DNA of 32,453 nucleotides from an uncultured Planctomycetota bacterium (lineage in GTDB: Bacteria > Planctomycetota > Phycisphaerae > UBA1845 > Fen-1342), in the NCBI GenBank assembly GCA_900696535.1, contig CAADGM010000028.1:1-32453 (forward strand). Direction: 5' to 3'. The notes under the pieces are model-generated. The model was not told the DNA's origin. It made no database searches and saw nothing but the letters and a program-made list of their open reading frames with translations. A program made the position numbers and the translations under genes. This document shows, in pieces, positions 12,212-25,292 of the stretch; the stretch's first letter is position 1, and every line of letters starts with the position of its first letter.

Positions 12212-13537
12212 GTGGACGAGCGCACCTGGCTGCTCGTCGTCGCCGGCGGGCTGCTGGCCGCCCTTTGCCTGTGGGGCGCGACCCGTGCCGCGCGCCGGGC
12301 GCGCCTGGTCCGTGACCTGCCCACGTGCAGCACTGACGGCGTGTTCATCGGGCTCGTGGAGCTGAAGGGGCGGGCGCGCTCGGAGCGACCGCTGACCAGC
12401 TTCCTCGCCGAGCGGCCCTGCGTGCACTACGCCTGGTGCGTCCAGGAGCATTGGCGCCGCACGGTCACCGAAACCTACACCGACAAGGACGGCAAGACCC
12501 GCACGCGCACGCGCGTCGAGAGCGGCTGGACGACCGTCGCCAGCGGCGGCGAGCAGCAGGACTTCTATCTCCAGGACGAGGACGGCGCGATCCGCATCCG
12601 GCCGGCCGGCGCCGAGATCGAGCCGCTTTCGGTCTTCGACCGCGCTTGCTCGCCGCGGGACCCGTTGTATTACGGCAAGGGACCGGCCGGGGCCGTGGCG
12701 AACTCGACACACACGCGCAGCTTCACCGAGAAGGCCATCCCGATCGACGCCACGATCTACGTCGTCGGCATGGCGCGCGAGCGGGACGATGTGATCGCCC
12801 CGGAGATCGCCGCCCACCGCGACGCCCCGATGTACCTCATCTCCACGCGCAGCGAGCAGCAGGTGCGGCGCGGGTACACGGCGCAGTACTGGTTCGTGGC
12901 TGCACTCGGCCTGGTGCTGTGGGTCGCGGGGTGGGTCGTCCGCGACGCGCTCGCGGCGGCGGGCCCGGTACCGTGGGGTGAGCGGCTGCCGGTGTATGCA
13001 GGCTGGGGGGCGGCGTACCTGGGCGCCTGGCTGCTGGCGTGGGTGTGGCTGGCGTACAACAGCCTCGTCGGGCTGCGGCAGCGCGTCCGACAGGCGTGGG
13101 CCAACGTCGACGTCCAGCTTAAGCGCCGGGCCGACCTGATCCCCAACCTGGTGCGCGCGGTGGAGGGGCTGCGCGACCACGAGCGGCAGGTGCAGACGCA
13201 CCTGGCCGAACTGCGCGCCCAGGCCGGCGCGACCGCCCCCGGCGAGCCCGGGCCGGACCCGCACGGGTGCCTGGCCAGCCTGCTGGCGATCGTCGAACGC
13301 TACCCGGAGCTGAAGGCCAGCGAGAGCTTCCTGCGGCTCCAGCGGGAGCTGGCCGCGACCGAACAGCGAATCGCCCTGGCCCGCGGCTACTTCAACGAGA
13401 TCGCGACGTTCTACAACACGCGGCTGGAGTCGGTGCCCGACGGCTACGTCGCCGCCCTGGCCGGCATGCGGCCCAAGCCGCTGATCACCGCGACGGATTT
13501 CGAGCGGGCGGCGGCGGCGGTGCAACTCAGCGCGTGA
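12212..13537 (+). CDS. GIDE-LemA fusion membrane protein
   Basis: A 441-residue protein from a GTG start. TM1 at 5-21; a GIDE-type domain (the MULAN/GIDE intermembrane domain, here without RING) spans about 45-225, recognised by GRARSERPLTSFLAERPCVHYAWCVQEH and the Y..GMA..RDD.I end; TM2 about 224-244; TM3 about 262-281; then LemA at 281-435 with YNSLVGLRQRVRQAWANVDVQLKRRADLIPNLV-type start and the YPELKAS..FL.LQ.EL..TE.RIA.AR segment. LemA domains are coiled bundles exposed outside the membrane; function is unsettled in both families. Its place next to the ESCRT-like cluster may matter because both domains occur in envelope-stress and membrane-organising proteins, but that is inference. Confidence 0.9.
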   Translation: MDERTWLLVVAGGLLAALCLWGATRAARRARLVRDLPTCSTDGVFIGLVELKGRARSERPLTSFLAERPCVHYAWCVQEHWRRTVTETYTDKDGKTRTRTRVESGWTTVASGGEQQDFYLQDEDGAIRIRPAGAEIEPLSVFDRACSPRDPLYYGKGPAGAVANSTHTRSFTEKAIPIDATIYVVGMARERDDVIAPEIAAHRDAPMYLISTRSEQQVRRGYTAQYWFVAALGLVLWVAGWVVRDALAAAGPVPWGERLPVYAGWGAAYLGAWLLAWVWLAYNSLVGLRQRVRQAWANVDVQLKRRADLIPNLVRAVEGLRDHERQVQTHLAELRAQAGATAPGEPGPDPHGCLASLLAIVERYPELKASESFLRLQRELAATEQRIALARGYFNEIATFYNTRLESVPDGYVAALAGMRPKPLITATDFERAAAAVQLSA

Positions 13538-13639: not shown

Positions 13640-14509
13640 TTATACGTCGATTCGACGCGCTACGATATCCAGTGCGGGGTAATGGAGCGAAGTAGCGTTG
13701 ATGTTCATCTCCTTGAGTCGATCGCGAACATCGCCCTTCAAATGCCCTGGGATTACGATGCGACCGCGCTCGATCTGCGCGTTGTTCGGAACCTTGTCGA
13801 TGGCCTCGTTGTGGGTTTTTCTCAGGCAGCCGCACGCTGTCATGAAAGCCTGCTGAGCCGCCATTCGGGGGAATGTTGGTTCATAGTGGATCTTCGAGAT
13901 CCAAGGCGCTCCGCTCGGGTCGAACGCGGTCGCCTCCAGTACACGCGGGTCAGTACCAGCAACTACCTCGGGCGTCCCCATCTCACGGACTCTCCCGTAG
14001 TACTGGGACCGCGTCGGGACTCGCCAGCCGTCCCACGCCTCGTGAATGACTTGCTCAAACTCGTTGTCATTGAACGACCAAATCACGCCATCAGTATCGC
14101 TGTGCTCGTGGCACGCGAACCAGGCCGCCACCCAAGGCGAGTGCGTCCAGTCGAGGAGTCGTGTCGGGAGCCCGCAGTGCCTTCCCAATGCAAGTAGGTT
14201 CCAGATATTCTGTAAGTAAGCCCCCTCGATGCTGCTGGCGTACAGAGCGCCCTCATCGCGGAAGCGCGCTATGACCGCCTGCTCTCGACCAAGCCACTGC
14301 TCGTACGACTCGTCGCGCGCGCAGCGTGTGAGCGCTCTGTCGATCGTGGTCTCAAGCTGCCAACTGGCCCTCGCAAGTCCCCGCCATGCGATAGATTTAG
14401 CGCGACACGCAGTGGTCGTACGTATTTCGTCGTAAAGCTGGTCGAAGCTCATGACCTGCCGAGCAGGCCAGCCCTGCGCCACTGCGAGACTCGAAGCCTC
14501 ATGGTTCAT
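13640..14509 (-). CDS. FRG-domain protein
   Basis: A 289-residue cytoplasmic protein with an FRG domain: AWRGLARASWQL at 41-51 carries the (F/W)RG motif, and RHCGLPTRLLDWTHSPWVAAWFAC at 110-133 is the second conserved block. FRG proteins are scattered accessory genes, often in mobile or defence-like settings, with no settled biochemistry. Base composition is lower in GC than in its neighbours (a representative 60-base stretch at 13681-13740 is 50% GC, against about 63% at 13381-13440), which suggests transfer. A 14-base perfect palindrome lies 14 bases before its start. It reads in the same direction as the ESCRT-like genes and starts 77 bases after the Snf7-like stop. Confidence 0.82.
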   Translation of the reverse strand: MNHEASSLAVAQGWPARQVMSFDQLYDEIRTTTACRAKSIAWRGLARASWQLETTIDRALTRCARDESYEQWLGREQAVIARFRDEGALYASSIEGAYLQNIWNLLALGRHCGLPTRLLDWTHSPWVAAWFACHEHSDTDGVIWSFNDNEFEQVIHEAWDGWRVPTRSQYYGRVREMGTPEVVAGTDPRVLEATAFDPSGAPWISKIHYEPTFPRMAAQQAFMTACGCLRKTHNEAIDKVPNNAQIERGRIVIPGHLKGDVRDRLKEMNINATSLHYPALDIVARRIDV

Positions 14510-14586: not shown

Positions 14587-15198
14587 CTACTTCGCCTCCT
14601 TCGCCCCGCCCTGGCTCTTGAGCGCGTCCAGCTCCGCCCGCAGGGCCGACATCTGCTGACCCTCGCGGGCCTTCTCGACCTGCTCTTCCGCCGCGATCAG
14701 CCGGTCGATCTCCTCGTCGCTGATGGCCTCGCTGGGGGCCGCGGCCACGTCCGCGGAGGCGGTCTGCTCGATCCCTTCCAGGAACATCGTCATCCGCTCC
14801 TCCATCGTCTGCGACTGGGCGATGGCCTTTTCCCACTCGAGCTGCGTCCTGGTCAGGTCGGCCTGGCCGTACATCCGCCCGATCTCGGCGGCCATGATCT
14901 TCATCGCACCGGCGAAGTCCGCCGCCGCCTCGGCCTGCCGCTTGATCAGCAGCGCGTTCTTCACCGCCAGGAGCTGCCGCTCGAGCATCTTCTTGATCGT
15001 CGCGGTCTTCTTGAGCGAGTTGCGGACGAAGGCGTACGACTGCATGTCGCCGATGGCCTTGGCCTGGCGCGCGTTCTTCACGAACTCGTCCTGGAACTTG
15101 CTCTGCTCGGCGATGGACTTCTCGATCCGCCGGATGCCCTGGCGGATCTTCATGTCGCGCTCGATTCGGCGTTCTTCGCTGGACTTGAAGAGACCCAT
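14587..15198 (-). CDS. ESCRT-III (Snf7/Vps2)-like protein with C-terminal MIM1-like helix
   Basis: A 203-residue, almost wholly helical, charged protein. It begins MGLFK followed by a basic helix, like the N-terminus of Vps2/CHMP2 and Snf7. A long helical hairpin follows (about 14-50 and 51-110, GDMQSYAFVRNSLKKTATIKKML), then ADFAGAMKIMAAEIGRMYG, and a TMEERM..FLEGIEQ helix near 131-145; order and spacing match eukaryotic Vps2-type ESCRT-III. Near the end, LRAELDALK (186-194) fits the MIM1 pattern L-x-x-R-L-x-x-L-K except Glu for Arg. MIM1 helices recruit Vps4 MIT domains; a MIT-like AAA protein is encoded 6.6 kb away. PspA/Vipp1 are the established bacterial members of the superfamily and are the main alternative. 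Membrane remodelling is inferred. Confidence 0.7.
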   Translation of the reverse strand: MGLFKSSEERRIERDMKIRQGIRRIEKSIAEQSKFQDEFVKNARQAKAIGDMQSYAFVRNSLKKTATIKKMLERQLLAVKNALLIKRQAEAAADFAGAMKIMAAEIGRMYGQADLTRTQLEWEKAIAQSQTMEERMTMFLEGIEQTASADVAAAPSEAISDEEIDRLIAAEEQVEKAREGQQMSALRAELDALKSQGGAKEAK

Positions 15199-15214
15199 CG
15201 TCCGCTCCGTGTGC

Positions 15215-15250
15215 GTGATAACGTGATCACGTGAGAACGTGATAAGGGGC
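15215..15250 (+). repeat. Intergenic GTGATAACGTGA..AAGGGGC repeat, copy 2
   Basis: GTGATAACGTGA, ACGTGATCACGT (a perfect 12-base palindrome at 15221-15232) and ACGTGATAAGGGGC lie between the Snf7-like and four-helix-bundle genes. It is the mate of the inverted copy at 15709-15746. Confidence 0.75.
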
Positions 15251-15252
15251 TG

Positions 15253-15699
15253 CTACTCCCACGTCTGGCCCGTCCCGGGGCCTGGCTTCCCGTCGTGCTC
15301 AATCGGGTTGAGGTACTTCGGCCCCGGCATGCCCTCACGCGTACGGCGCAGGCGGCTGATGTACGCCTGAAGCTGGCGAGAGCATGGCTCGCAGCGCTCG
15401 TGCAGCCACGCGAAGGCGCGTTTGTCGATCAGGCCCACGTCATGGGCGGTACAGATCTGGCTCCGCAACTCGCCCGCAGACCCCCTGGCGATGTAGCACG
15501 CCTCGATCTGCTGCTTGCGCGTCCCGCGCTCAAAACCTTCGGCGATGTTGCTGCCGATGCTGACTGCGGCACGCTTCATCCGGGTCGCCAGGGCAAAGTC
15601 CTTCGCGAGCCGTTGCCGCTCGGCAGCCCGATAGACGCCGCGCGCGAGGATGCGCGCCGTCTGCCACACTCTCAGGTCTGCAAATCGGTTAGCGGCCAT
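15253..15699 (-). CDS. Four-helix-bundle protein (23S rRNA IVP family)
   Basis: A 148-residue member of the 23S rRNA intervening-sequence protein family. Signatures are FADLRVWQTARILARGVYR at the N-terminus, then LATRMKRAAVSIGSNIAEGFERGT and ACYIARGSAGELRSQICTAHDVG. The family is widespread in metagenomic bacteria and forms homo-oligomeric four-helix bundles; no enzymatic activity is known. The start at 15699 has AAGGGG about 10 bases upstream. It lies between two ESCRT-III-like genes in the same direction, with about 50 bases on either side, and is framed by inverted copies of an intergenic repeat, so it looks like a later insertion into the cluster. Confidence 0.9.
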   Translation of the reverse strand: MAANRFADLRVWQTARILARGVYRAAERQRLAKDFALATRMKRAAVSIGSNIAEGFERGTRKQQIEACYIARGSAGELRSQICTAHDVGLIDKRAFAWLHERCEPCSRQLQAYISRLRRTREGMPGPKYLNPIEHDGKPGPGTGQTWE

Positions 15700-15708
15700 A
15701 GCGTGCGA

Positions 15709-15746
15709 GCCCCTTTTCACCATCTCACGTTGGCACTTTATCACAC
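15709..15746 (-). repeat. Intergenic GTGATAA..AAGGGGC repeat, inverted copy 3
   Basis: On the minus strand the sequence reads GTGTGATAAAGTGCCAACGTGA then GATGGTGAAAAGGGGC. It is inverted relative to copy 2 and brackets the four-helix-bundle gene. Confidence 0.7.
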
Positions 15747-15749
15747 CGC

Positions 15750-16358
15750 TCACTCCGTGGCCGCTCCGCGCTCGCGCAGGCGGCGCTCGGCCTCGTCGAA
15801 GGCGGTGTGCGTGTCCTTGATCAGGCCGGCGTCGAGGTCGCCCCAGATCTTCATCAGCTCCTGTCCCGCCGGCGAGAGGCCCGCCCCGCCCGCGTCGGCC
15901 TCGGCCCCGATGGCCAGGATCTGGTCCAGCCGCTCCTGATACATCTCGGTCGTGATCGCGTCGCTCTCGATCAGCCGGGCGATCGTGGCCAGGTCGGCGT
16001 CGCGGATGGCCACCCGCCCGCCCAGGTTCAGCCCCGCGGCCGAGGCGGCGTTCTCCCGCAGCAGCCGCAGCCGGGCGACCGTGAGCATCTCCTTGCTGCG
16101 GATATTGAGCTGACGGCTGAGCATGGACTGCTCGGTGTGCAGGAGGTCGTACTGCTGCGCGAGCGTGCGGCGCATCTCGGGCGTGCGCTCCTTGGCGCCC
16201 TGCTCGACGAGCTTCTCCTTGTCGGCGGCCAGCTTGCGGACGCGGGCCATCGTGCGGTCGCGGTCGGCCTGGAGCAGCATCTCCTGGGCGCGCAGCTCGG
16301 CCGGGGACATGCTGGCCAGGGTCTTACGCTTGGTGGTGAGCCATTCGAAGAAGTTCAT
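15750..16358 (-). CDS. ESCRT-III-like coiled-coil protein
   Basis: A 202-residue helical protein starting MNFFEWLTTKRKTL. A short SPAEL box (18-22) leads into a long helical hairpin (about 22-58 and 60-105, broken at ERTPE), an Ala/Gly-rich break, and a second helical set (ADLATIARLIES, MYQERLDQILAIGAE, ELMKIWGDLD) with an acidic/basic tail. The helix lengths and break match the alpha1-alpha2/3 hairpin and alpha4-5 of ESCRT-III/PspA proteins. It aligns end to end with residues 270-440 of the protein encoded next upstream (MN-aromatic-x-W start, SPAE box, same hairpin), so the two are paralogues. The ATG at 16358 is preferred over an upstream in-frame ATG on that alignment. Confidence 0.62.
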   Translation of the reverse strand: MNFFEWLTTKRKTLASMSPAELRAQEMLLQADRDRTMARVRKLAADKEKLVEQGAKERTPEMRRTLAQQYDLLHTEQSMLSRQLNIRSKEMLTVARLRLLRENAASAAGLNLGGRVAIRDADLATIARLIESDAITTEMYQERLDQILAIGAEADAGGAGLSPAGQELMKIWGDLDAGLIKDTHTAFDEAERRLRERGAATE

Positions 16359-16390
16359 GCGCTGTCCATTCCTGAGCCGCAAACTCTGGA

Positions 16391-16520
16391 GCACCCGCTC
16401 TCAACCGATAACGTGGAGCACCCGCTATCAGCGGGTGTCGAGACGTGCACGCTACCGGCGGGTGACGTCGAGCGTCGGCGCTTAGTCGGCGATGTGCAGC
16501 ACCCGCCATGAGCGGGTCCC
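16391..16520. repeat. Repeated CACCCGC hairpins between two ESCRT-III-like genes
   Basis: GGAGCACCCGCT occurs at about 16388 and 16415. CACCCGC-TATCA-GCGGGTG (16419-16437) is a 7-bp stem, and ACCCGC-CATGA-GCGGGT (16501-16517) a 6-bp stem with the same sequence and loop size. No T-tract follows. They may be a REP-like element, an attenuator or an mRNA-processing site. Confidence 0.55.
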
Positions 16521-16583
16521 GGTCGACCCGCTCCTGCTGCGACGCGCAGCTTCCCCCGACGGCGCGAGTTCCACACTTCCGAC

Positions 16584-18053
16584 TCAGCTCAACTCCGGCT
16601 TCGCCTTGCTCTTCTCGCCCGGCGGCGGCTCGGCCGGCGCGGGGCCGCCCGCCAGCCGCTCCGCACCCGGCGCACGGCTGCGCTCCGCGGCCGGCGGCGC
16701 GGGTTCGGCTCCGGCCTTGGACGGGGCCGCCTTCTCCGCCGCCGCGGCCCTGAACCGCTCCATGATGGCCTGCTCTTCCTCGGCCATGGCGGGCGAGGTG
16801 GCCCCGACCTCGATGCTCGCGGCGAGGTCGGCGCTGGTGGCCAGCTCCGCCATCATTGCCTCGGCCTGGGCCGCCTCGCGGGCCAACTCCTCGGACGAGG
16901 GCAGCGCCACGCGCTTGCCCTTCTCGGCCCTGGTCTGGTGGTGGATGTGCGTGCCAATCACGTCAATCTGCTGCGTGAGCATGTTCGCCTGGGCCTGCAC
17001 TCGGCGCATCTCGCGCTCGGTCCGCATGAGTTGCCCGGCGATCGCGCGGCGCTCGGCATCGTTCTTGGCGTCGACCCCGCGCTGCTCGAGCTCGCGGGCC
17101 TGCTCGCCCAGCCCGGTCAACCGCTGGTCAAGCTGGTGCCGCTCCGCCTCGAGCTGCACGCGCTGCGCGGTCAGCTCGCGGACGCGCTCGGCCGGCGAGG
17201 GCGGCAGGCGAAACACGTTCCGACGGATCCAGCTCCACCAGTTCATCTCGCGAACCTCGTCGGCCAGCGGGCTGCGGCAAACGTGCAGCACGCCCTCGTG
17301 CACCACGGTCATCAGCCGACCGTCACGCCGGCACGCCTCGCGAACCAGCGCCACCACCTGCTCGCCCGGCAACCCGAGCTGCTCGGCCAGCTCCGGCAGC
17401 GCAAGGCCGCGCGACTCGAGCTCGACCGCGTGCTTCTGAAGATGATACACCAGCCGGCCCACCCGCTCGTCCAGCGACTCGAGCTCGAACAGCGGCCGCC
17501 AGGGAGATTTCTTGAGCACCTCGGGCACGTCGACGTCCCAGCCGCCGTCCGCCCGCCCGCCCATCAGGATCAGCGAGCAATCGCCGGCGGCGTTCACGAG
17601 CGCGCGGGCTTCGGGCGTGAACCCGGTCGGGCTCGCGAAGACCACCGCGGTCGGACGCTGCGGCCGGGGCATGCTGCGGAAGCGCGCCAGGGCGTCGCGC
17701 ACGTACTCGGCATCGATCGGGCCTGCGGCGCCGCCGAGGATCATCGCCTGCAGCGGCATGAGCACCTGCGCCCGCAGCCGAACGACCTCCCGGCGGAGCG
17801 GACCCAGAACGCGGCGCTCGAAGCGCAGTTGCTGCCCCTGCGCGCCGGGCAGCGACTGCTCGAGGGCGTACGGGTTGGCGGCGGAGGCCCCCCAGCGACT
17901 GACCGCGGCGCGAACCGTCTCCGCGCCGTCCGGCGTCGTTTCGACGCGCACGCGGTCCGCTGGCAGCCAGCGGCCCAGAAGCTGCTCGGCGCGCTTCACG
18001 AGCTGCCGGTGAAACTGGTCCTCGAACTGCTTGTAGCGGCTCCGCTCGTCCAT
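16584..18053 (-). CDS. Winged-helix plus ESCRT-III-like protein (CHMP7-like layout)
   Basis: A 489-residue protein. Residues 1-125 are helical and unrecognised. Residues 130-190 (PTAVVFASPTGFTPEARAL, SLILMGG) look like an alpha/beta core. Residues 200-260 look like a winged helix: ALPELAEQLGLPGEQVVALVREACRRDGRLMTVVHEGVLHV. At 270 begins a second unit, MNWWSW..SPAER, with a long charged helical hairpin (284-370) and later helices (385-440) that align with the neighbouring ESCRT-III-like protein; the tail is Pro/Ala/Glu-rich. A winged helix joined to an ESCRT-III unit is the layout of eukaryotic CHMP7, and winged helices occur in archaeal CdvB. That comparison rests on domain order and needs structural proof. 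The start at 18053 is chosen because sequence upstream becomes low-complexity and overlaps the next gene. Confidence 0.6.
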   Translation of the reverse strand: MDERSRYKQFEDQFHRQLVKRAEQLLGRWLPADRVRVETTPDGAETVRAAVSRWGASAANPYALEQSLPGAQGQQLRFERRVLGPLRREVVRLRAQVLMPLQAMILGGAAGPIDAEYVRDALARFRSMPRPQRPTAVVFASPTGFTPEARALVNAAGDCSLILMGGRADGGWDVDVPEVLKKSPWRPLFELESLDERVGRLVYHLQKHAVELESRGLALPELAEQLGLPGEQVVALVREACRRDGRLMTVVHEGVLHVCRSPLADEVREMNWWSWIRRNVFRLPPSPAERVRELTAQRVQLEAERHQLDQRLTGLGEQARELEQRGVDAKNDAERRAIAGQLMRTEREMRRVQAQANMLTQQIDVIGTHIHHQTRAEKGKRVALPSSEELAREAAQAEAMMAELATSADLAASIEVGATSPAMAEEEQAIMERFRAAAAEKAAPSKAGAEPAPPAAERSRAPGAERLAGGPAPAEPPPGEKSKAKPELS

Positions 18054-18165
18054 GGTCTCGCTCGGCGGCACGCCGATGAATGGCTGCGGCAACGGTTCCC
18101 GGCCGGTGCGGGCACGGCTCGTGACGCGCTGCCCGGACAGGGCGAGCGGCGTGGCCAGCACACCG

Positions 18166-18435
18166 CTAGCCGCGCAACCGGCTCCCGCAGCGGGCACAGT
18201 ACCGCGCCTGTGGCGGGTTGAGGTAGCCACACCGGGTATTCGGGCAGCCGACGAGCGTATTGACCGGGACTCCGGGATCCGGGTGGCCGGCCCCGAAGAA
18301 GGCCCGCCCGAGCGTCCGGAAAGCACAGGTGACCGCCCGGATCACCGACCCGACCACCACGACGAAGAAGCCGACGAATCCGACGACCAGGAGTGTCAGG
18401 AGAACCGCGAAGGCGCTGGTTTCACCCAGGAGCAT
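18166..18435 (-). CDS. Small membrane protein with C-terminal zinc ribbon
   Basis: An 89-residue protein with one long hydrophobic segment (about residues 8-36), then a short linker and a CPNTRC...CARC zinc ribbon (about 64-84). The start lies 6 bases after the kinase stop codon, so the two are surely co-transcribed and probably translationally coupled. The kinase carries two similar ribbons. A role as membrane partner or anchor of the kinase is inference. Confidence 0.75.
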   Translation of the reverse strand: MLLGETSAFAVLLTLLVVGFVGFFVVVVGSVIRAVTCAFRTLGRAFFGAGHPDPGVPVNTLVGCPNTRCGYLNPPQARYCARCGSRLRG

Positions 18436-18441
18436 GGCGAA

Positions 18442-19506
18442 CTACCCCCGCAGGGCCGCCAGCGCCGCCCCGCAGTAGATGCAGTACCGGTCGAACGGAC
18501 CCGGATACGCCCCGCACGCGCTGCACCGCACGATCTGATCGACGAGCTGCACGCCGCAGTGTGTGCAGAAGTTGTCCTCGGGCTCGACCGCGCCGCCGCA
18601 GCCCGGGCAGCGCGTCAATCCGCCCAGCGTGACGCTGTCCACCGGCGGCCGGGCCGGCGCAGCGCCACGCGGCGCCGCCTCCTGCTCGAGAATCTGGAGC
18701 ACCTCGGCGGCCGACTCGAAGCGCCGCTCGTGCCGGGCGTACAGCCGGCGAAAGACCTCGTCGAGCGTGGGCGGCGTGTCGGCCCGCAGCGTACTCGGCA
18801 GCTCGGCGCCGGCGGGCCGCTCGCCCGTGAGCAACTCAAAGAGGATCACGCCAACGGCGTAGAGGTCGCTGCGGGCGTCCGGTGGCAGGCGCCCGTCGCG
18901 CACCTCGGGGGCCATGTAGGCCAGCGTGCCGGCAAGCTGCGAGCCCTGCTCGTCCCGCGCGATCGAGGCGGATTGCATCACGATTGAGCGCAGGTCGTTT
19001 TCCGTCTTGACGCCCAGGCCGAAGTCTCCCACCTTCACGTCCTCGACGCGCAGCTCCACGAGCGACCGCGGCCCGAGGTTGAGCAGCACGTTGCCGGGCT
19101 TGAGGTCGCGGTGAATGACGCCGCCGGAATGGGCAACGCCGAGACCGGTCAGCACGCCACGGAGGATTGTCAGCAGTACGGGAAGCCCCAGTCCCTTGGG
19201 GTGCTGGTTGATGACATCGCGGAGCGACGGACCCGAGACGAGCTCCATGACGAGGTAGGGCGTGTCCGCGTAGGGATCGAGGCCGATGACCCGCACGATA
19301 TTGGGGTGCCGCAGGCCGTGGACGACGATGCCCTCCGACCGCAGGTAGCGGACGTAGTCCGGCTCCGTGGGCAGCTTGACCGCGACGCGCTCGCTGTCCC
19401 AGACGTGATGCCGCGCCTGCCAAACCTCGCCGAACGCACCGCGCCCGAGCAACGACTCGAGGATGTACTCGCTGATGCGCAATCCGGGCTGGTAGCGCGT
19501 GATCAT
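18442..19506 (-). CDS. Serine/threonine protein kinase with two C-terminal zinc ribbons
   Basis: A 354-residue Hanks-type kinase. The kinase domain (about 10-275) is complete: glycine loop GRGAFGEV at 21-28, VAVK with K44, catalytic HRDLKPGNV at 132-140, DFG at 161-163, APE at 199-201. All catalytic residues are present, so it should be active. The tail holds two zinc ribbons, C300/C303 with C314/C317, and C328/C331 with C342/C345. There is no TM segment, so it is cytosolic, perhaps recruited to the membrane by the TM/zinc-ribbon protein encoded just downstream. The ATG at 19506 has a GGGAGAGAGGG purine run upstream. Its place at the head of the ESCRT-like cluster suggests it controls that machinery; this is inference. 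Confidence 0.9.
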   Translation of the reverse strand: MITRYQPGLRISEYILESLLGRGAFGEVWQARHHVWDSERVAVKLPTEPDYVRYLRSEGIVVHGLRHPNIVRVIGLDPYADTPYLVMELVSGPSLRDVINQHPKGLGLPVLLTILRGVLTGLGVAHSGGVIHRDLKPGNVLLNLGPRSLVELRVEDVKVGDFGLGVKTENDLRSIVMQSASIARDEQGSQLAGTLAYMAPEVRDGRLPPDARSDLYAVGVILFELLTGERPAGAELPSTLRADTPPTLDEVFRRLYARHERRFESAAEVLQILEQEAAPRGAAPARPPVDSVTLGGLTRCPGCGGAVEPEDNFCTHCGVQLVDQIVRCSACGAYPGPFDRYCIYCGAALAALRG

Positions 19507-19582
19507 GCGGTCGGTCCCTCTCTCCCAGCGTGCTCCCCGAGCGGCGGGCCGGACAGGCGAGCCGTGGGCTGGAAGCGCGCGA

Positions 19583-19987
19583 TCATTGCGAGCGCTCCGC
19601 GAGGTACTCGCATACGAAGTAATTGTACGTTCCCGCCAGGGCGAGCAGCGCCAGCGCGCCCAGCCACGCCCAGCCACCGGCAGGCCAGCCGCCGATAAGC
19701 AGCAGGCCCGCGACCGCGTTGACCAGCGTCAGGCTCGCGATCAGCACGACCCCGACCCAGTTCTCGCCGACTTCGAGCAACCGCCGAATGAACAACTGGC
19801 TGATCCAGGGCAGCACGGCGGCGATGACGAACCACGCCACGGTACGCCAGATGGCCTCCCAGAGTGCCGCGCGGCCGGCGGGTCCGGCCTGGTACAGCGC
19901 AATCCCGCCCGCGACCAGGGCCGCCAGCGCGACGTAACCCAGGATTCGCTCGCTCAGGCGCGACAGCAGTCCGCCCTTGGTTTCCAT
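19583..19987 (-). CDS. Small polytopic membrane protein (about 4 TM)
   Basis: A 134-residue protein with about four hydrophobic segments (near 16-32, 46-62, 78-98 and 103-121) and a short charged C-terminus (EYLAERSQ). No family is recognised. The start METKGG is chosen because the residues before it look non-coding. It precedes the kinase gene by 76 bases on the same strand and is probably the first gene of the kinase/ESCRT-like transcript. Confidence 0.7.
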   Translation of the reverse strand: METKGGLLSRLSERILGYVALAALVAGGIALYQAGPAGRAALWEAIWRTVAWFVIAAVLPWISQLFIRRLLEVGENWVGVVLIASLTLVNAVAGLLLIGGWPAGGWAWLGALALLALAGTYNYFVCEYLAERSQ

Positions 19988-20152
19988 CGCCGGGCAGTGT
20001 ATCACCGCGCGGCCCGGCGGACGTTCCACAGCCGACCCAATCGCGGAATGCCCGACACGTTCCGACGGTGCAAGGGCGGCGTAACGGGTAATAGGTGCAC
20101 CGTCCGGTAGCCTGGCGGCCCGCGGACCGATGTGGCTGCCGCAATCGCGCGG

Positions 20153-21481
20153 CTACAGCAGCGTCCCGCGCAGTATGGCGGAGGCCAGCGCGAAGTAAAT
20201 GACCAGCCCGGTGACGTCGACCAGGGTTGCCACGAACGGCGCCGAGCTGGTGGCCGGGTCGAGGCGCAGTCGGCGCAACAGGAAGGGCAACATGCTGCCG
20301 ACGAGCGTGCCGAAACAGACCACGCCGATGAGGCTGGCCCAGACCGTCAGGCCGATCAGCACGTAGTGCGGTCCGTAGTCGTAGAAGCCGGCCGCCTGCC
20401 AGATGATCACGCGCAGGAACCCGATCAGCCCCAGCCACCCGCCCAGCGTGAGGCCGGACCGGAGTTCGCGGAGCAGGACGCGTGTCCAGTCGCGGAGCTG
20501 AAGCTCACTCAGGGCCAGCGAGCGCACAATCAGCGTGGCCGCCTGCGAGCCGGAGTTGCCCCCGCTGCTGATGATGAGTGGAATGAAAATGGCCAGCACG
20601 ATCGCCTTGGCAAGCTCGCCCTCGAAGAAACCCATCGCGGTCGCCGTCAGCGTCTGGCCGAGGAACAGCACCGAGAGCCACACGCCGCGCTTGCGGGTCA
20701 TCTCGAGGTACCCGACATCCAGGTAGGGCGCGCCGAGCTTCTCGGTACCGCCGAGCTTCTGAATGTCCTCGGTCGCCTCTTCCTGGACCACGTCGACCAC
20801 GTCGTCGACCGTGACCACGCCCTTCATCCGCCCCTCTTCATCGACGACCGGGACGGCCGTCAGGTCGTGCCGGGCAATGACCGCGGCCACGCTCTCCTGG
20901 TCGGCGGTCTCGTGCACCGTGACGACGTCGCGGCGCATCACCTGCTCGACCAGCGCGTCGGCCGGCGTCTGGAACAGCTCGCGGAACGACAGCACCCCCA
21001 GAAGCCGCTGCCCCGCGTCCAGGACGTAGATGTAGTGATACGTGGCGAGGTTCCGCTGCGTCTGCTGCCGCAGGTAGCGGATGGCTACGTCCATCGTGAC
21101 GTCCGGCCGCACGCGCACGAAGCGCGGATTCATCAGGCCGCCCGCGTCGTCTTCCGCGTAGGCCATCAGGGCGCGGACCTCGCGCAGCGTGATCGGATCC
21201 AGCCACGACTCGAACCGCTCGCGCTCCTCCGGCCTCACGGCCTGGAGCACGTCGGCCGTGTCGTCCGGCGGCAGGAAGCGGAGCCAGATCACCGCCTCGG
21301 CCGGCGTGAGGTCACGCAGCAGGCTCGCCTGGTCCGCCGACGAGAGCCCGGAGAAGAACTCGCGGGCTTCGTCGGAGGCCAGCAGCCGGAATGCGTCGAC
21401 CCGCTCGTCATCCGAGAGCACGCTCCAGAGGTCGCGGAGTGTCGCGGCGTCGAGTCTCTCGTCAGAAAGATCGGGCGGCAT
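20153..21481 (-). CDS. mgtE: Magnesium transporter MgtE
   Basis: A 442-residue MgtE-family Mg2+ channel. The N-domain (1-110) contains repeated LRDLTPAEA-type helices. Two CBS domains follow (about 118-238; VMRRDVVTVHETADQESVAAVIARHDLTAVPVVDE), then a connecting helix and five TM segments from about 268 to the end. The family signature SSGGNSGSQAATL is at 306-318. MgtE channels close when the cytosolic N and CBS domains bind Mg2+. The start at 21481 is where homology begins; the long upstream frame is GC-rich leader. It separates the leftward ESCRT-like cluster from the Vps4-like gene and is probably unrelated to them. Confidence 0.95.
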   Translation of the reverse strand: MPPDLSDERLDAATLRDLWSVLSDDERVDAFRLLASDEAREFFSGLSSADQASLLRDLTPAEAVIWLRFLPPDDTADVLQAVRPEERERFESWLDPITLREVRALMAYAEDDAGGLMNPRFVRVRPDVTMDVAIRYLRQQTQRNLATYHYIYVLDAGQRLLGVLSFRELFQTPADALVEQVMRRDVVTVHETADQESVAAVIARHDLTAVPVVDEEGRMKGVVTVDDVVDVVQEEATEDIQKLGGTEKLGAPYLDVGYLEMTRKRGVWLSVLFLGQTLTATAMGFFEGELAKAIVLAIFIPLIISSGGNSGSQAATLIVRSLALSELQLRDWTRVLLRELRSGLTLGGWLGLIGFLRVIIWQAAGFYDYGPHYVLIGLTVWASLIGVVCFGTLVGSMLPFLLRRLRLDPATSSAPFVATLVDVTGLVIYFALASAILRGTLL

Positions 21482-21798
21482 GGTGAGGTGACTCCCGCGC
21501 CCCCGGGGGCAACCCCGGGGCCCACTGCCTGGGTCCGCGCGCGGACCGACCGACCTGGTCCCGTGGCCACCCCCGGCCCGCCTCCCGCGCGCGGGCCGGA
21601 CGCGGCGACGCGAACCTAGCGTAGGCGTCGGCGTTGGGCAATCGCCACCGATCGTGCCGGCGCCGAGCGTGTCTCGAATTGCGCCCGGGCCAGAGAGCGG
21701 ACTTACGGCGAGAACCGCAATCGGTCGTACAATGTCCGGGTGTTGCGCCGCGACGCCGCGGCCGCGAATTCTGAGGACGCGCGACTGAATTCCCCGAG
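21482..21798. promoter_or_regulatory. Divergent mgtE / Vps4-like intergenic region
   Basis: No gene is seen. The mgtE side holds dense GC-rich self-complementary sequence: GCCCCCGGGGGC (21499-21510), CCCCGGGG (21513-21520) and GGTCCGCGCGCGGACC (21532-21547), suggesting a structured leader. I cannot assign it to the M-box riboswitch. On the other side TACAAT (21728-21733) is a candidate -10 box for the Vps4-like gene, about 65 bases before its ATG. Confidence 0.45.
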
Positions 21799-22950
21799 AT
21801 GCCTGCATCATTTGCCACGTTTCAGCGTCTCAAGGACAAGGGCCTGGCCGCCCTGCGCGAAGGCGACCACGTCGCCGCCCGGCCCTACCTGATCCAGGCC
21901 GCGGAGTGCATGATCGAGATCGCCGAGGCCAACACCGATCCGTCGCAGCGCGCTGAGCAGGAGGCCTACGCCAAGGAGCTGCTCGACCTGGCCCGCGATT
22001 GTGATCGCCGGGCGGCGGCCGGCGGGCGGGGCGGCGGGGCGGCGCTACGACCACGCGGCGAGCGGGCCCGCGGCGGCGGCGGGGGCGACGAGGAGCCGGG
22101 CGCCAACCCGGACGACTGGATCGTCCGCGAGAAGCCCACGGTCCGCTTCGACGACATCGCCGGACTCGACGACGTCAAGGCCGAGATCAAGCTCAAGATG
22201 CTGCACCCCTTCAACCACCCCGAGCTGGCGGCCCGGTACGGCATCGATGTCGGTGGCGGCGTGCTGCTGTGGGGCCCGCCCGGCACGGGCAAGACCATGT
22301 TCGCCAAGGCGATCGCGTGCGAGCTCGACGCGACGATGTTCGTCATCAGTCCCGCGCAGCTCATGAGCAAGTGGGTCGGCGAGGCCGAGCAGAACGTCCG
22401 TAAGCTCTTCGACGCCGCCAAACAGGAGGCCAAGAGCATCATCTTCATGGACGAGGTCGAGGCGCTCGTGCCCCGCCGCAGCGGCCAGCAGTCCACGGTC
22501 ATGCAGCGCGTCGTCCCGCAAATCCTCCAGGAGATCGAGGGCTTCGACCGCAAGGCCGGCCGAGCGCTCCTCTTCCTGGGCGCCACGAACGAGCCGTGGT
22601 CGCTCGACCCGGCGATGATGCGGCCCGGCCGGCTGGACGCGAAGATCTACGTCCCCCTGCCCGACGCCCCCGCCCGGCTGCGCCTGTTCGAGATCTATCT
22701 TGGCAAGCGCCCCCTGGCCGACGATATCGACCTGCCGGCGCTGGTCGAGCTCACCGCCGGCTACAGCGGCGCCGACATCAAGGCGATCTGCGAGCGTTCC
22801 GCAAGACGTCCCTTTTTGGAATCGATCGAGGGCGGTCAGCCTCGTAACATCCGCCAGGCCGACCTGCTGGCCGTGCTCGCCGAGACGCCGCGATCCGTGA
22901 CCGGCAAGGAGCTCGAGCGATTCGAGAAATGGAGGATCGAGAACCAATAG
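21799..22950 (+). CDS. Vps4-like AAA ATPase with N-terminal MIT-like domain
   Basis: A 383-residue single-ring AAA protein. Residues 5-72 form three predicted helices (FQRLKDKGLAALREGD.., PYLIQAAECMIEIAE, AEQEAYAKELLDLARDC), the form of a MIT domain. A Gly/Arg linker (73-105) follows. The ATPase begins with VRFDDIAGLDDVK; Walker A GPPGTGKT 159-166; pore loop LMSKWVGEAE 188-197, nearly identical to Vps4/katanin; Walker B IIFMDEVE 214-221; sensor GATNEPW; RPGRLDAKIYVPLPD; GYSGAD; ending TGKELERFEKW like katanin/CdvC. The Vps4 beta-domain is not apparent. In the family such ATPases pull ESCRT-III subunits or tubulin tails through the pore. Nearby ESCRT-III-like genes favour the first. AAA identity is certain; MIT is by eye. 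Confidence 0.85.
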   Translation: MPASFATFQRLKDKGLAALREGDHVAARPYLIQAAECMIEIAEANTDPSQRAEQEAYAKELLDLARDCDRRAAAGGRGGGAALRPRGERARGGGGGDEEPGANPDDWIVREKPTVRFDDIAGLDDVKAEIKLKMLHPFNHPELAARYGIDVGGGVLLWGPPGTGKTMFAKAIACELDATMFVISPAQLMSKWVGEAEQNVRKLFDAAKQEAKSIIFMDEVEALVPRRSGQQSTVMQRVVPQILQEIEGFDRKAGRALLFLGATNEPWSLDPAMMRPGRLDAKIYVPLPDAPARLRLFEIYLGKRPLADDIDLPALVELTAGYSGADIKAICERSARRPFLESIEGGQPRNIRQADLLAVLAETPRSVTGKELERFEKWRIENQ

Positions 22951-23155
22951 CGAAGAGCGAATGGCGAATAGCGAAGTAGGAGCGAGCAACCGAGTCGGCG
23001 GTATGTGACCGCTCGTTACCGAAGATCCGGCGGTTGCGGTCTCGGCGAACGAGATCCGACGTTTCGCCACTCGGCACTTGAGACCCGGCCTCTCGCCATT
23101 CGAGGTCCGCAGTTCGGTGTTTCGCCATTCGTTATCCGCTCCTCGCTCTTTACGG
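22946..23155. repeat. AATAGCGAA-type repeats forming long imperfect inverted repeat, copy A
   Basis: Degenerate units (AATAGCGAA, GAGCGAATGGCGAATAGCGA) run from the end of the Vps4-like gene; complementary units (TCGCCATTCG, CGCCATTCGTTATCCGC, CGCTCTTT) occupy 23090-23152, so the stretch can fold back on itself. The sequence between shows no gene. Confidence 0.6.
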
Positions 23156-23163
23156 AGTCTTCC

Positions 23164-23376
23164 ATGCGTTCCGTCGGTGCGGCGTACGGCTTGTGGGCGT
23201 TGTGCATCGTGGGTGTCGCCGGCGTGCACCGCTTCTACCTCGGGAAGTGGGTCACCGGCCTGATCTGGCTGTTCACCTGGGGCCTGCTCGGCATCGGCTC
23301 GCTCATCGACCTGATCCTCATCCCGGAGATGGTCGAGCGGCGCAACGCGCGCGCCGACGGGTACGCGACGTGGTGA
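23164..23376 (+). CDS. TM2-domain protein
   Basis: A 70-residue protein consisting of one TM2 domain: two TM helices (about 8-22 and 31-50) around the conserved G-x-HRFYLGKW motif at 19-28, followed by GLIWLFTWGLLGIGSLIDLILIP. TM2 proteins are small membrane proteins of unknown role, often beside genes for signalling or membrane stress. GGAG lies about 7 bases before the ATG. Repeat-rich spacers flank the gene on both sides. Confidence 0.88.
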   Translation: MRSVGAAYGLWALCIVGVAGVHRFYLGKWVTGLIWLFTWGLLGIGSLIDLILIPEMVERRNARADGYATW

Positions 23377-23498: not shown

Positions 23499-25292
23499 AT
23501 GCTCGACCGACTGACCGACGCCACGATCCTCGCCCTCCGCTGCCCGGGGTCCGCCTGGCCGCGGGGGCTGCTGGGCGGTCCGCCGCTCCCGGACGCGTGG
23601 ATGGGCCTGGTCGAGACGCCGGACGGCCGCCGGCGCTTTGTTCCGGCGGGAGAAGACCCGCGCCCCGCGCGCGACGACGTGCTCCTGCTGGTGCGCAACC
23701 GCGCGATCACGGTGCCGCTCGAGCTGCACGACGCACCGGCCGCTTGTGATCACGGCGTCGAAGCCCGCGTCGAACTGCTCGTCCGGCCCGAACGCCAGGA
23801 AACGGCCCTGGCCGCGCTGCGGCAGAATCTCCTCACGCAGCCGGAACTGCGACTCGACGAGTTCGCCGCGGCGGTCTGCGGCCCCGGCGGCGCAGTCGCG
23901 GCGTTGCGCGCGTACGTTCGCTCCCGACCCGCCGCCGACCTGGTCGGCACCGACCCGGAGCCCGAACTGCTCGCGCACTTGCAGGCGCGGCTCGGTCCCT
24001 GGCTCTACTCGGCCGGGCTCACCCTGGAGCGTGTCGCGACGGCCGCGTTTTCCAGCCCCGCGCTGGAAGCCCAGCGCAAGCTCCAACTCTCGACCCGCGA
24101 AGCGGCCGCACGACTCGAGGCCCGCGAGGCCGTCGAGCAGGCCGCGCTGACCGCCGCCCGACGCCGTGTCGAGGGTCTCAGCGCCATCCTCGACAAGCTC
24201 CGCAGCGCCGCCGGGAACGACGACCGGGCCGGCTGGCAGGCACTCCTGCCGGCGCTGACGCCGGCGGAGCGCGGCCGACTTCTCGAAAGCCTGTGGCGGA
24301 TCACGCCTGACCGGCACGTGGCCGCGGCGATCCTCGCGGTGGCTGGGGACGAGTGCCTGTGGCTTGACCCGTGCGACCCGCTGCGCGTGCAGCGCCGTGT
24401 CCAACTGCCACCGACACTCGGGCCGCCGCGATCAGTCTGCTTTGCCTTGGACACCGCGGGCTCGAGATCGTCGCCGGCGGGGCTCGTGCTCGTCGGTGCC
24501 CAGTCGGGTGTATTGGTGCTTGATGCGGACGACGGCGAGTTGCTGGCCGAGTACCCGGTGCCCGGGACGCGCGAGCTACGCTTCGGCTTCAACCGCGTGG
24601 CGCTGTCGGGATCGCGCCTGATCGCAACGCACTCGGAGCTGGGTTGCTGGACGTGGACGCGCAATCGCCCCGACAGCCCGGACGCCCTCCTCGTGCCCGA
24701 AGGCGGCACGCCCCGGACCGTTCGAGCGGCGACGTTCAGCGACGACGGGCACATGCTCTTCGCCGTCGACAGCGCGATTCGCGTGCACGCTCCCGACGGG
24801 GCGCTCGCGCGGACGCTCGAGATCAGCCGCGGCGGTGTCCACGACCTGGCCGTCAGCGGCGAACAGGTCTACGCGGCCACCGCGGACGGACTGCTGCTGG
24901 CCGATCGCTGGACCGCGCCCCAGGTCTGGCAGGTGCTGCATCGCCGCGCGGATCCCATCGAGTCGCTCGCCCTGCGGCGCTGGGACGACCTGGTCGAGCT
25001 GGTCATTCCGGCGGGCGAGGACGGCGTGCTCGGCGTGTACGGTGACGTGGGGATTGTGGCGCAGCTCGTCGCCACGCCGGTCCGCATTCGCCGCGCCTGG
25101 GCCTGCGACGACCTCGTCGTCGGTCTCTCCGAAGTCCGCGACCGTCTCGTCGTGCTCAACGCGAACCTGCCGGACTCGGTTCCGCGACAGGCGCCCACGA
25201 CACGGCTGACGCGCCACTCGATACAGGACGTGTGCATCGCGCTGCGCCGCGCCGCAAACCCGGCCGACGCCGCAGGAGAGAGCCCCTCATGA
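23499..25292 (+). CDS. SPFH-like plus beta-propeller-like protein
   Basis: A 597-residue protein without signal peptide. Residues about 35-190 resemble a band-7/SPFH core: DGRRRFVPAGEDP, a VLLLVRNRAITVPLEL strand pair, VEARVELLVRPE, and a helix-strand end GPWLYSAGLTLERVATAAFSSP. A charged helix follows (about 186-240, EAQRKLQLSTREAAARLEAREAVEQ), as in flotillin-like proteins. From about 290 to 575 there are repeated strand patterns ending in (V/A)-x-D/S and GVLVLDADDGELLAEYP, like WD40/PQQ propeller blades. I recognise no family for the whole. SPFH proteins scaffold membrane microdomains, so membrane association near the ESCRT-like system is plausible. Its stop overlaps the deoC start (ATGA). 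Confidence 0.6.
   Translation: MLDRLTDATILALRCPGSAWPRGLLGGPPLPDAWMGLVETPDGRRRFVPAGEDPRPARDDVLLLVRNRAITVPLELHDAPAACDHGVEARVELLVRPERQETALAALRQNLLTQPELRLDEFAAAVCGPGGAVAALRAYVRSRPAADLVGTDPEPELLAHLQARLGPWLYSAGLTLERVATAAFSSPALEAQRKLQLSTREAAARLEAREAVEQAALTAARRRVEGLSAILDKLRSAAGNDDRAGWQALLPALTPAERGRLLESLWRITPDRHVAAAILAVAGDECLWLDPCDPLRVQRRVQLPPTLGPPRSVCFALDTAGSRSSPAGLVLVGAQSGVLVLDADDGELLAEYPVPGTRELRFGFNRVALSGSRLIATHSELGCWTWTRNRPDSPDALLVPEGGTPRTVRAATFSDDGHMLFAVDSAIRVHAPDGALARTLEISRGGVHDLAVSGEQVYAATADGLLLADRWTAPQVWQVLHRRADPIESLALRRWDDLVELVIPAGEDGVLGVYGDVGIVAQLVATPVRIRRAWACDDLVVGLSEVRDRLVVLNANLPDSVPRQAPTTRLTRHSIQDVCIALRRAANPADAAGESPS

Follow-up and report, generated by a model that had tools for sequence, protein, structure and literature searches.

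This locus raises the question of whether a bacterium can carry an ESCRT-III protein and a Vps4-type ATPase together as one membrane-remodelling module. The window, a stretch of 32,453 nucleotides from an uncultured planctomycete, had been read in an earlier note as encoding three ESCRT-III-like proteins (P1, P2 and P3) and a MIT-like plus AAA protein between positions 14587 and 22950. All four open reading frames are present where that reading placed them (Table 1), and the proposed extent is incomplete in that the module reaches about 25.3 kb, a gene for an SPFH and beta-propeller protein at 23499-25292 having been missed.

Table 1. Features of the module and their positions in the window.
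Feature	Position	Strand	Basis
P1, ESCRT-III (Snf7-family) subunit, 203 aa	14587..15198	-	Pfam, PDB profile, AF2, Foldseek
P1 C-terminal helix LRAELDALK, MIM1-like, candidate MIT-docking tail	14617..14643	-	Conservation; binding inferred
P2, conserved coiled-coil protein, 202 aa	15750..16358	-	Homologous to P3 C-terminal half
P3, N-terminal conserved domain, wHTH-like stretch, P2-related coiled coil, low-complexity tail	16584..18053	-	
P3 coiled-coil domain, residues 270-435	16749..17246	-	hhalign to P2
P3 wHTH-like stretch, residues 217-258	17280..17405	-	Sub-threshold Pfam, alignment reading
Small TM protein, C-terminal zinc ribbon, 89 aa	18166..18435	-	Zn_Ribbon_1 sub-threshold
Ser/Thr protein kinase, two C-terminal zinc ribbons	18442..19509	-	Pkinase 3.5e-35, Zn_ribbon_3
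TM148, small putative membrane protein, first operon gene	19583..20029	-	Conserved position
MIT-AAA ATPase (AAA2), 383 aa, Vps4-like layout	21799..22950	+	Pfam AAA, AAA_lid_3, Vps4_C
Predicted MIT domain of AAA2, residues 1-78	21799..22032	+	AF2, Foldseek
Vps4_C-like C-terminal helix of AAA2, residues 349-378	22843..22932	+	Pfam Vps4_C
TM2-domain membrane protein	23005..23376	+	PF05154 1.1e-14
SPFH/Band-7 + beta-propeller protein, last conserved module gene	23499..25292	+	Band_7, propeller PDB matches

P1 is an ESCRT-III protein of the Snf7 family. It starts with MGLFKS, is 62-81% identical across the order, and in the AF2 model has helices at residues 7-49, 52-110, 115-152 and 161-199, with a long alpha1-alpha2/3 hairpin followed by alpha4-alpha5, at moderate confidence (pLDDT 75, pTM 0.47). 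The best ten Foldseek matches of this model are all ESCRT-III, with CHMP2A-CHMP3 first and CHMP1B, Snf7 and Asgard ESCRT-III among the best structures; no Foldseek E-value falls below 1e-3, either here or for the MIT model described below. The window P1 alone has no match to Pfam Snf7, and neither ESCRT-III nor MIT came up by sequence when the queries were single window proteins or order-level alignments; ESCRT-III was detected by sequence only from an alignment of P1 across classes. Among 38 members of this wider family Snf7 is matched by 17 (best E-value 2.7e-6) and PspA_IM30 is not among the Pfam families listed, and the best eight matches of the P1 profile in the PDB are all ESCRT-III (CHMP3, Snf7 and CHMP2A), at 8e-5 for CHMP3 and 1e-3 for SNF7. 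No Snf7 match is given by ten reversed P1 sequences, nor by P2 and the P3 C-terminal coiled coil, the coiled-coil proteins of the module itself.

A different relationship is seen with P2 and P3, which match each other and neither P1 nor known ESCRT-III, such that the proposal of three ESCRT-III-like proteins is borne out for P1 and lacks sequence support for the other two. P2 aligns with the C-terminal half of P3 (hhalign 97.7%, E 2e-12), and judging by sequence the two form a coiled-coil family separate from P1. Neither P2 nor P3 matches ESCRT-III in Pfam or in PDB profile searches, or P1 in any comparison including hhalign, and their assignment to ESCRT-III was set aside as unsupported by sequence. 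In several other classes the P3 coiled-coil domain has a gene of its own, with split genes at loci L298, L299, L303 and L304. The wHTH-like stretch of P3 is a weak, sub-threshold match to Pfam Rv2175c_wHTH (E 0.009), and the low-complexity tail often ends in PE[MLIA][GSN].

The N-terminus of the AAA protein is predicted to be a three-helix MIT fold (helices 5-20, 24-44 and 48-77; AF2 pLDDT 93.4, pTM 0.82), which bears out its earlier description, and the model superposes on the MIT domains of Vps4, katanin and MITD1 with TM values of 0.76-0.85 in Foldseek. The Pfam MIT model does not match the window AAA, and the call is based on the fold and on the alignment of a paralog, AAA1, to VPS4B. AAA1, of other classes, is co-linear over residues 8 to 356 with human VPS4B (246.9 bits), VPS4B being the only single-AAA-domain chain in its best 60 PDB matches, and scores 206 bits against yeast Cdc48 D2 alone. 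The window AAA has a single AAA domain and matches Pfam AAA (2.5e-40), AAA_lid_3 (2.5e-10) and Vps4_C (7e-4, just under the cut-off); the ortholog at L299 passes the curated Vps4_C cut-off (25.0 versus 21.3 bits). Its core is slightly nearer to the Cdc48 model (9.2e-67, 225.9 bits) than to CdvC (1.8e-63, 214.7 bits) and keeps the RPGR motif. The Vps4/katanin-type pore loop LMSKWVGEAE is present, as had been noticed, with little or no variation across the AAA family at W192, V193, G194 and E197.

The P1 tail is strongly conserved, with L186 and E189 invariant and R187, L190, L193 and K194 each kept in at least 90% of 68 sequences. The MIM1-like pattern LxxxLxxLK occurs in 79 of 79 P1 proteins of the order compared with 3 of 34 from other classes. 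Windows taken from internal coiled coil match the pattern 16.5% of the time, and because of this background the motif is suggestive of docking and was dropped as proof of it; its conservation suggests that this is a candidate MIT-docking tail.

Among 61 related genomes P1 is found in 49, P2 in 52, P3 in 53 and the AAA gene in about 50 (counting near-full-length matches alone), and all four core genes are missing from eight. P1 and AAA are both present in 48 genomes and both absent from 10, with one alone in three (Fisher p 8e-9 over the 61 genomes, relatedness ignored). The conserved operon runs TM protein-kinase-P3-P2-P1-AAA-SPFH/propeller, and 40 of 80 named loci have all seven genes in one cluster. 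Of the 66 named loci whose upstream sequence is long enough, 60 keep TM148-kinase-P3-P2-P1 unbroken, and in 48 of 60 loci AAA lies downstream of P1 in the same orientation, no more than 3.5 kb away. The module genes are almost always single-copy and are clustered far beyond chance. With linkage and co-inheritance taken as the test of membership of an ESCRT system, the ESCRT-III and Vps4-type genes prove to be both linked and co-inherited. In the window the block from TM148 to P1 is inverted and AAA is indeed divergent, as described earlier; this is a peculiarity of the window's genome and not the general layout, since AAA lies co-directionally downstream of P1 in relatives. In family f13 AAA does not adjoin P1, and 11 of 13 cases carry it at another genomic position; among the ten P1-lacking genomes covered by that search, a full-length match is seen only in G022, an assembly of 630 contigs from the same family as the window.

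The module is also present in other planctomycete classes, where AAA1 is often added as a second, VPS4B-like MIT-AAA. Named carriers are without exception MAGs or uncultured genomes. An anammox identity of the other-class carriers was not concluded, HZS_alpha being found in 3 of 20 genomes and inconsistently within families. FtsZ is absent in 100 of 101 relatives scanned, both with and without the module, and is therefore uninformative on module function; its loss was dropped as a correlate.

The earlier note had named three ways in which its ESCRT-III/Vps4 reading could fail: structures lacking the ESCRT-III hairpin and alpha4-5 arrangement, an AAA N-terminus other than a three-helix MIT fold, or a neighbourhood not conserved in related genomes. 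All were examined and the core pair of P1 and AAA withstood them, in that P1 has the arrangement, with ESCRT-III neighbours in both fold and sequence, the AAA model has the MIT fold, and the gene order is kept among relatives.

The full Ser/Thr kinase described earlier is confirmed (Pkinase E 3.5e-35), carries zinc ribbons and occurs in 69 of 80 named loci. Small membrane proteins had likewise been noted, and two small TM/zinc-ribbon proteins are present. The 89-aa protein recurs between the kinase and P3 in relatives, and TM148, with hydrophobic segments read from its sequence and no Pfam match, is conserved in position in 64 of 80 loci. The TM2-domain protein is found in only some relatives (4 of 80 loci). 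The SPFH-propeller gene is present in 47 of 80 loci; Band_7 exceeds its cut-off in 5 of 16 members and in the ortholog at L296 (24.8 versus 23.6 bits), and PDB matches to WD40 and propeller structures reach 5e-17. SPFH proteins are likewise known from Meth_adaptin ESCRT loci of archaea and from some loci with PspA (PMC10936438). We also note an FRG-domain gene adjoining P1 in the window, which does not recur in the loci of the 20 relatives compared.

P1 could instead be a PspA/Vipp1-type envelope-stress protein, sharing an operon by chance with an unrelated AAA regulator or unfoldase. The established ESCRT-III proteins of bacteria are PspA and Vipp1 (PMC8281802), and both appear at lower rank in the P1 Foldseek list, but this is made highly improbable by the Snf7 rather than PspA_IM30 matches of the P1 relatives, the profile matches to CHMP3, Snf7 and CHMP2A, the true PspA encoded as a separate gene in 9 of 61 relatives, and the MIT domain of an AAA protein that is not of PspF-type architecture. 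We give similarly little credence to a katanin/spastin-like unfoldase or severing enzyme acting on a cytoplasmic P1-P2-P3 coiled-coil cytoskeleton with no membrane role; the MIT model also resembles those of katanin and MITD1, and P2 and P3 are coiled coils without an established fold, but P1 is ESCRT-III in sequence and fold, and the small TM proteins and SPFH protein belong to the module.

NTP-dependent conflict systems contain combinations of kinase, AAA and propeller proteins, and with a wHTH-like protein and an FRG-domain gene beside P1 the cluster might be taken for a regulated conflict or defence system and not a housekeeping membrane machine. Such a role is extremely improbable, however, as defence islands are patchy whereas P1 is well conserved through the order, the genes are nearly always single-copy and extend to several classes, and the FRG gene was not seen again in the loci of the 20 relatives.

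The ESCRT-III/Vps4 module invites comparison with archaeal Cdv (CdvB with CdvC/Vps4), which also has a Snf7-family gene beside that of a single-AAA ATPase bearing a MIT domain and a Vps4_C-like C-terminus, and a wHTH-type partner (suspected here). It differs in being bacterial, with no gene recognised as CdvA, in having a Ser/Thr kinase, an SPFH-propeller protein and the P2/P3 coiled-coil family as partners, and in the Cdc48-like AAA core with RPGR. Eukaryotic ESCRT-III/VPS4 shares the CHMP3/CHMP2A and Snf7 proteins nearest to P1 and the co-linearity of VPS4B, MIT included, with AAA1, but has many ESCRT-III paralogs where the module has one proven. Bacterial PspA/Vipp1 shares the superfamily, the hairpin fold and, in some loci, SPFH partners, whereas P1 is unmatched by PspA_IM30 and accompanied by a MIT-AAA, PspA being a separate gene where present. 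Passages of a 2024 PSP survey (PMC11237479) describe bacterial PspA/Snf7 near AAA+ ATPases and a Vps4-like AAA in some bacteria; those systems differ in that the Vps4-like AAA is accompanied by TPR/6TM proteins, with snf7 displaced, or alternatively the AAA has two domains, one inactive. A planctomycete operon of Snf7 and MIT-AAA is not described in those passages.

The module is very probably a bacterial ATP-driven membrane-remodelling machine of the ESCRT-III/Vps4 type. The analysis shows the ESCRT-III identity of P1, the MIT fold of the AAA protein and the joint inheritance and clustering of the genes; from these we infer tail docking, polymerisation, ATP-driven turnover and partner roles. 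P1 would polymerise on the inner face of the membrane through its alpha1-alpha2 hairpin, like ESCRT-III, and the MIT domain of an AAA hexamer would capture the P1 C-terminal tail (MIM1-like in this order). The ATPase would then pull P1 subunits through the KWVG pore, and the resulting polymer turnover would drive membrane constriction or scission. Division or budding, work on internal membranes, and repair are candidate events for it to serve. P2 and P3 may be coiled-coil co-factors or co-polymers, with the wHTH-like P3 a plausible nucleator; positioning at a membrane domain may fall to the SPFH-propeller and small TM proteins, and regulation to the kinase. A bolder version, that a complete planctomycete ESCRT-III/Vps4 machine, equipped in several classes with two MIT-AAAs and up to four filament proteins, constricts or cuts membranes in the division or budding of bacteria without FtsZ, is rather unlikely.

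Published reviews place such systems in archaea and eukaryotes only, which a conserved bacterial operon of Snf7 and MIT-AAA contradicts. The finding bears on whether the ESCRT-III/Vps4 pair predates the archaeal lineage or has moved between domains, and the module provides a concrete candidate for membrane shaping or cutting in planctomycetes that lack FtsZ.

By profile comparison and predicted structure, P1 is an ESCRT-III protein. Its AlphaFold2 model (68 sequences; moderate confidence) has helices at residues 7-49, 52-110, 115-152 and 161-199, and the ten best Foldseek matches in the PDB are all ESCRT-III, including CHMP2A-CHMP3, CHMP1B/IST1, Loki CHMP4-7, Snf7 and Asgard ESCRT-IIIB, with Vipp1, CdvB and PspA ranking below them; none has an E-value of 0.001 or less, and probabilities extend to 1.00. 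When 38 P1 proteins drawn from several classes are combined into a profile, it matches CHMP3 (8e-5), SNF7 (about 1e-3) and CHMP2A, and its eight best matches are all ESCRT-III. Pfam Snf7 is found in 17 of the 38 (best 2.7e-6; one member scores 25.2 bits, short of the 27.3 cut-off), and is matched by neither ten reversed P1 sequences nor the module's other coiled coils. The earlier note proposed an ESCRT-III/Vps4-like module with three ESCRT-III-like subunits; this is supported for P1 and the ATPase, but one subunit of the three is established, as P2 and P3 match neither ESCRT-III nor P1 by sequence. P2 belongs to one family with the C-terminal half of P3. P3 further contains a conserved N-terminal domain and, by a weak Pfam match, a wHTH-like stretch; several other classes encode these parts as separate genes. 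A short conserved PE[MLIA][GSN] sequence frequently closes the tail of P3 orthologs.

The ATPase has, in its predicted structure, the MIT domain suspected earlier. Residues 1-78 form a three-helix bundle (pLDDT 93.4, pTM 0.82) for which Foldseek retrieves the MIT domains of MITD1, Vps4, katanin p60, NRBF2, spartin and archaeal Vps4, many with TM-scores of 0.76-0.85 as against 0.33-0.38 for consensus TPRs; the E-values are weak (0.2 and above), probably because the query is so short. CDC48 models score slightly above CdvC models on the AAA core of this protein (AAA2). At the C-terminus it matches Vps4_C, and in an ortholog this match exceeds the cut-off. AAA2 may descend from a Vps4 or a Cdc48-like ancestor. 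Several other planctomycete classes carry a second MIT-AAA protein, AAA1 (L291-L310, L258), co-linear with VPS4B and with SRFEKKI where RPGR otherwise stands; its alignment with human VPS4B runs from residue 8 to 356 and takes in both MIT and AAA.

Of 61 related genomes, about 50 have P1, and the same is true of AAA, P2 and P3; each gene is nearly always single-copy, and all four are missing from eight genomes. The relatives bearing names are nearly all labelled as Phycisphaerae, Phycisphaerales or Planctomycetota MAGs, UBA1845 included, and their gene order is TM148, kinase, P3, P2, P1, AAA, SPFH-propeller, nearly always on a common strand. The order from TM148 to P1 is intact in 60 of 66 named loci, AAA follows P1 within 3.5 kb in 48 of 60, and all seven genes occur together in 40; the kinase-P3 gap often holds a small zinc-ribbon protein. 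Within family f4 the module is wholly missing from seven genomes (G029, G035, G039, G042, G054, G057, G060) and retained in three (G045, G048, G051), a natural presence/absence comparison.

All four open reading frames noted earlier are present in the window at the positions given for them. The contig that contains it, C28, comes from an assembly of 4.24 Mb with 95.9% completeness and 6.1% contamination. Among the proteins of the window, Pfam identifies the AAA protein, the Ser/Thr kinase with its zinc ribbons and the small zinc-ribbon protein, with no significant match for P1, P2 or P3. The divergent ATPase gene is real but local, because the TM148-to-P1 block is here exceptionally inverted relative to AAA-TM2-SPFH/propeller-deoC. 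A possible misassembly at the inversion would leave the module unaffected, since it rests on other genomes.

Module genes and their neighbours in the window
Feature	Coordinates	Strand	Remark
GIDE-LemA domain fusion	12212-13537		
FRG-domain protein	13640-14509		adjoins P1 3' end
P1	14587-15198	-	
23S rRNA intervening-sequence family protein	15253-15753		PF05635, 3.8e-28; between P2 and P1, as in several relatives; absent from others
P2	15750-16358	-	
P3	16584-18053	-	
Kinase	18442-19509	-	
TM148	19583-20029	-	putative membrane protein
MgtE transporter	20153-21811		separates the module halves; longest frame overlaps AAA start, so true start probably downstream
AAA (AAA2)	21799-22950	+	
SPFH-propeller	23499-25292	+	

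The module is larger and more widespread than first described. The SPFH-propeller gene is a member; its family matches both WD40/propeller structures and Band_7, the latter above cut-off in L296. SPFH proteins are also known from Meth_adaptin ESCRT loci of archaea and from some PspA loci of bacteria (PMC10936438). Across the class, 83 of 298 genomes have P1 (E 0.01), including f13 and the divergent f23, as do 56 of 343 from a phylum-wide draw. Several other-class loci combine P3-like, one or two P2-like, AAA1, P1, AAA2, SPFH-propeller, TM protein and kinase genes, in varying subsets and orders. In f13 AAA2 does not adjoin P1, yet lies elsewhere in the genome in 11 of 13; among ten P1-lacking genomes of the same search, only G022 (window's family, 630 contigs) has AAA2. 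A 2023 review describes bacteria as having no clear Vps4 homologue. A 2024 PSP survey (PMC11237479) mentions PspA/Snf7 of bacteria close to AAA+ ATPases, and transfers of Vps4-like AAA; the partners in the cases described there differ from those of the planctomycete module. No account of the module was found in the literature covered, bioRxiv preprints, most subscription journals and supplements being outside its scope.

FtsZ/tubulin was found in only one of 101 relatives scanned, module present or absent alike, and is likewise missing from the window's own genome; the sole match is in G013 (L311), a genome with 8% contamination. The module may thus serve in division, yet co-occurrence does not point to such a role. 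In ESCRT-III/Vps4 systems the subunits polymerize, the ATPase docks through its MIT domain and subunits are extracted. The P1 tail is MIM1-like (LRAELxxLK) in all 79 members of the window's order; docking of this tail on the MIT domain is something we infer, as the strict motif is rare outside the order (3 of 34 P1 tails). The parts of the module fit this scheme, with a putative planctomycete polymer on which the ATPase would dock by its MIT domain and from which it would extract subunits.
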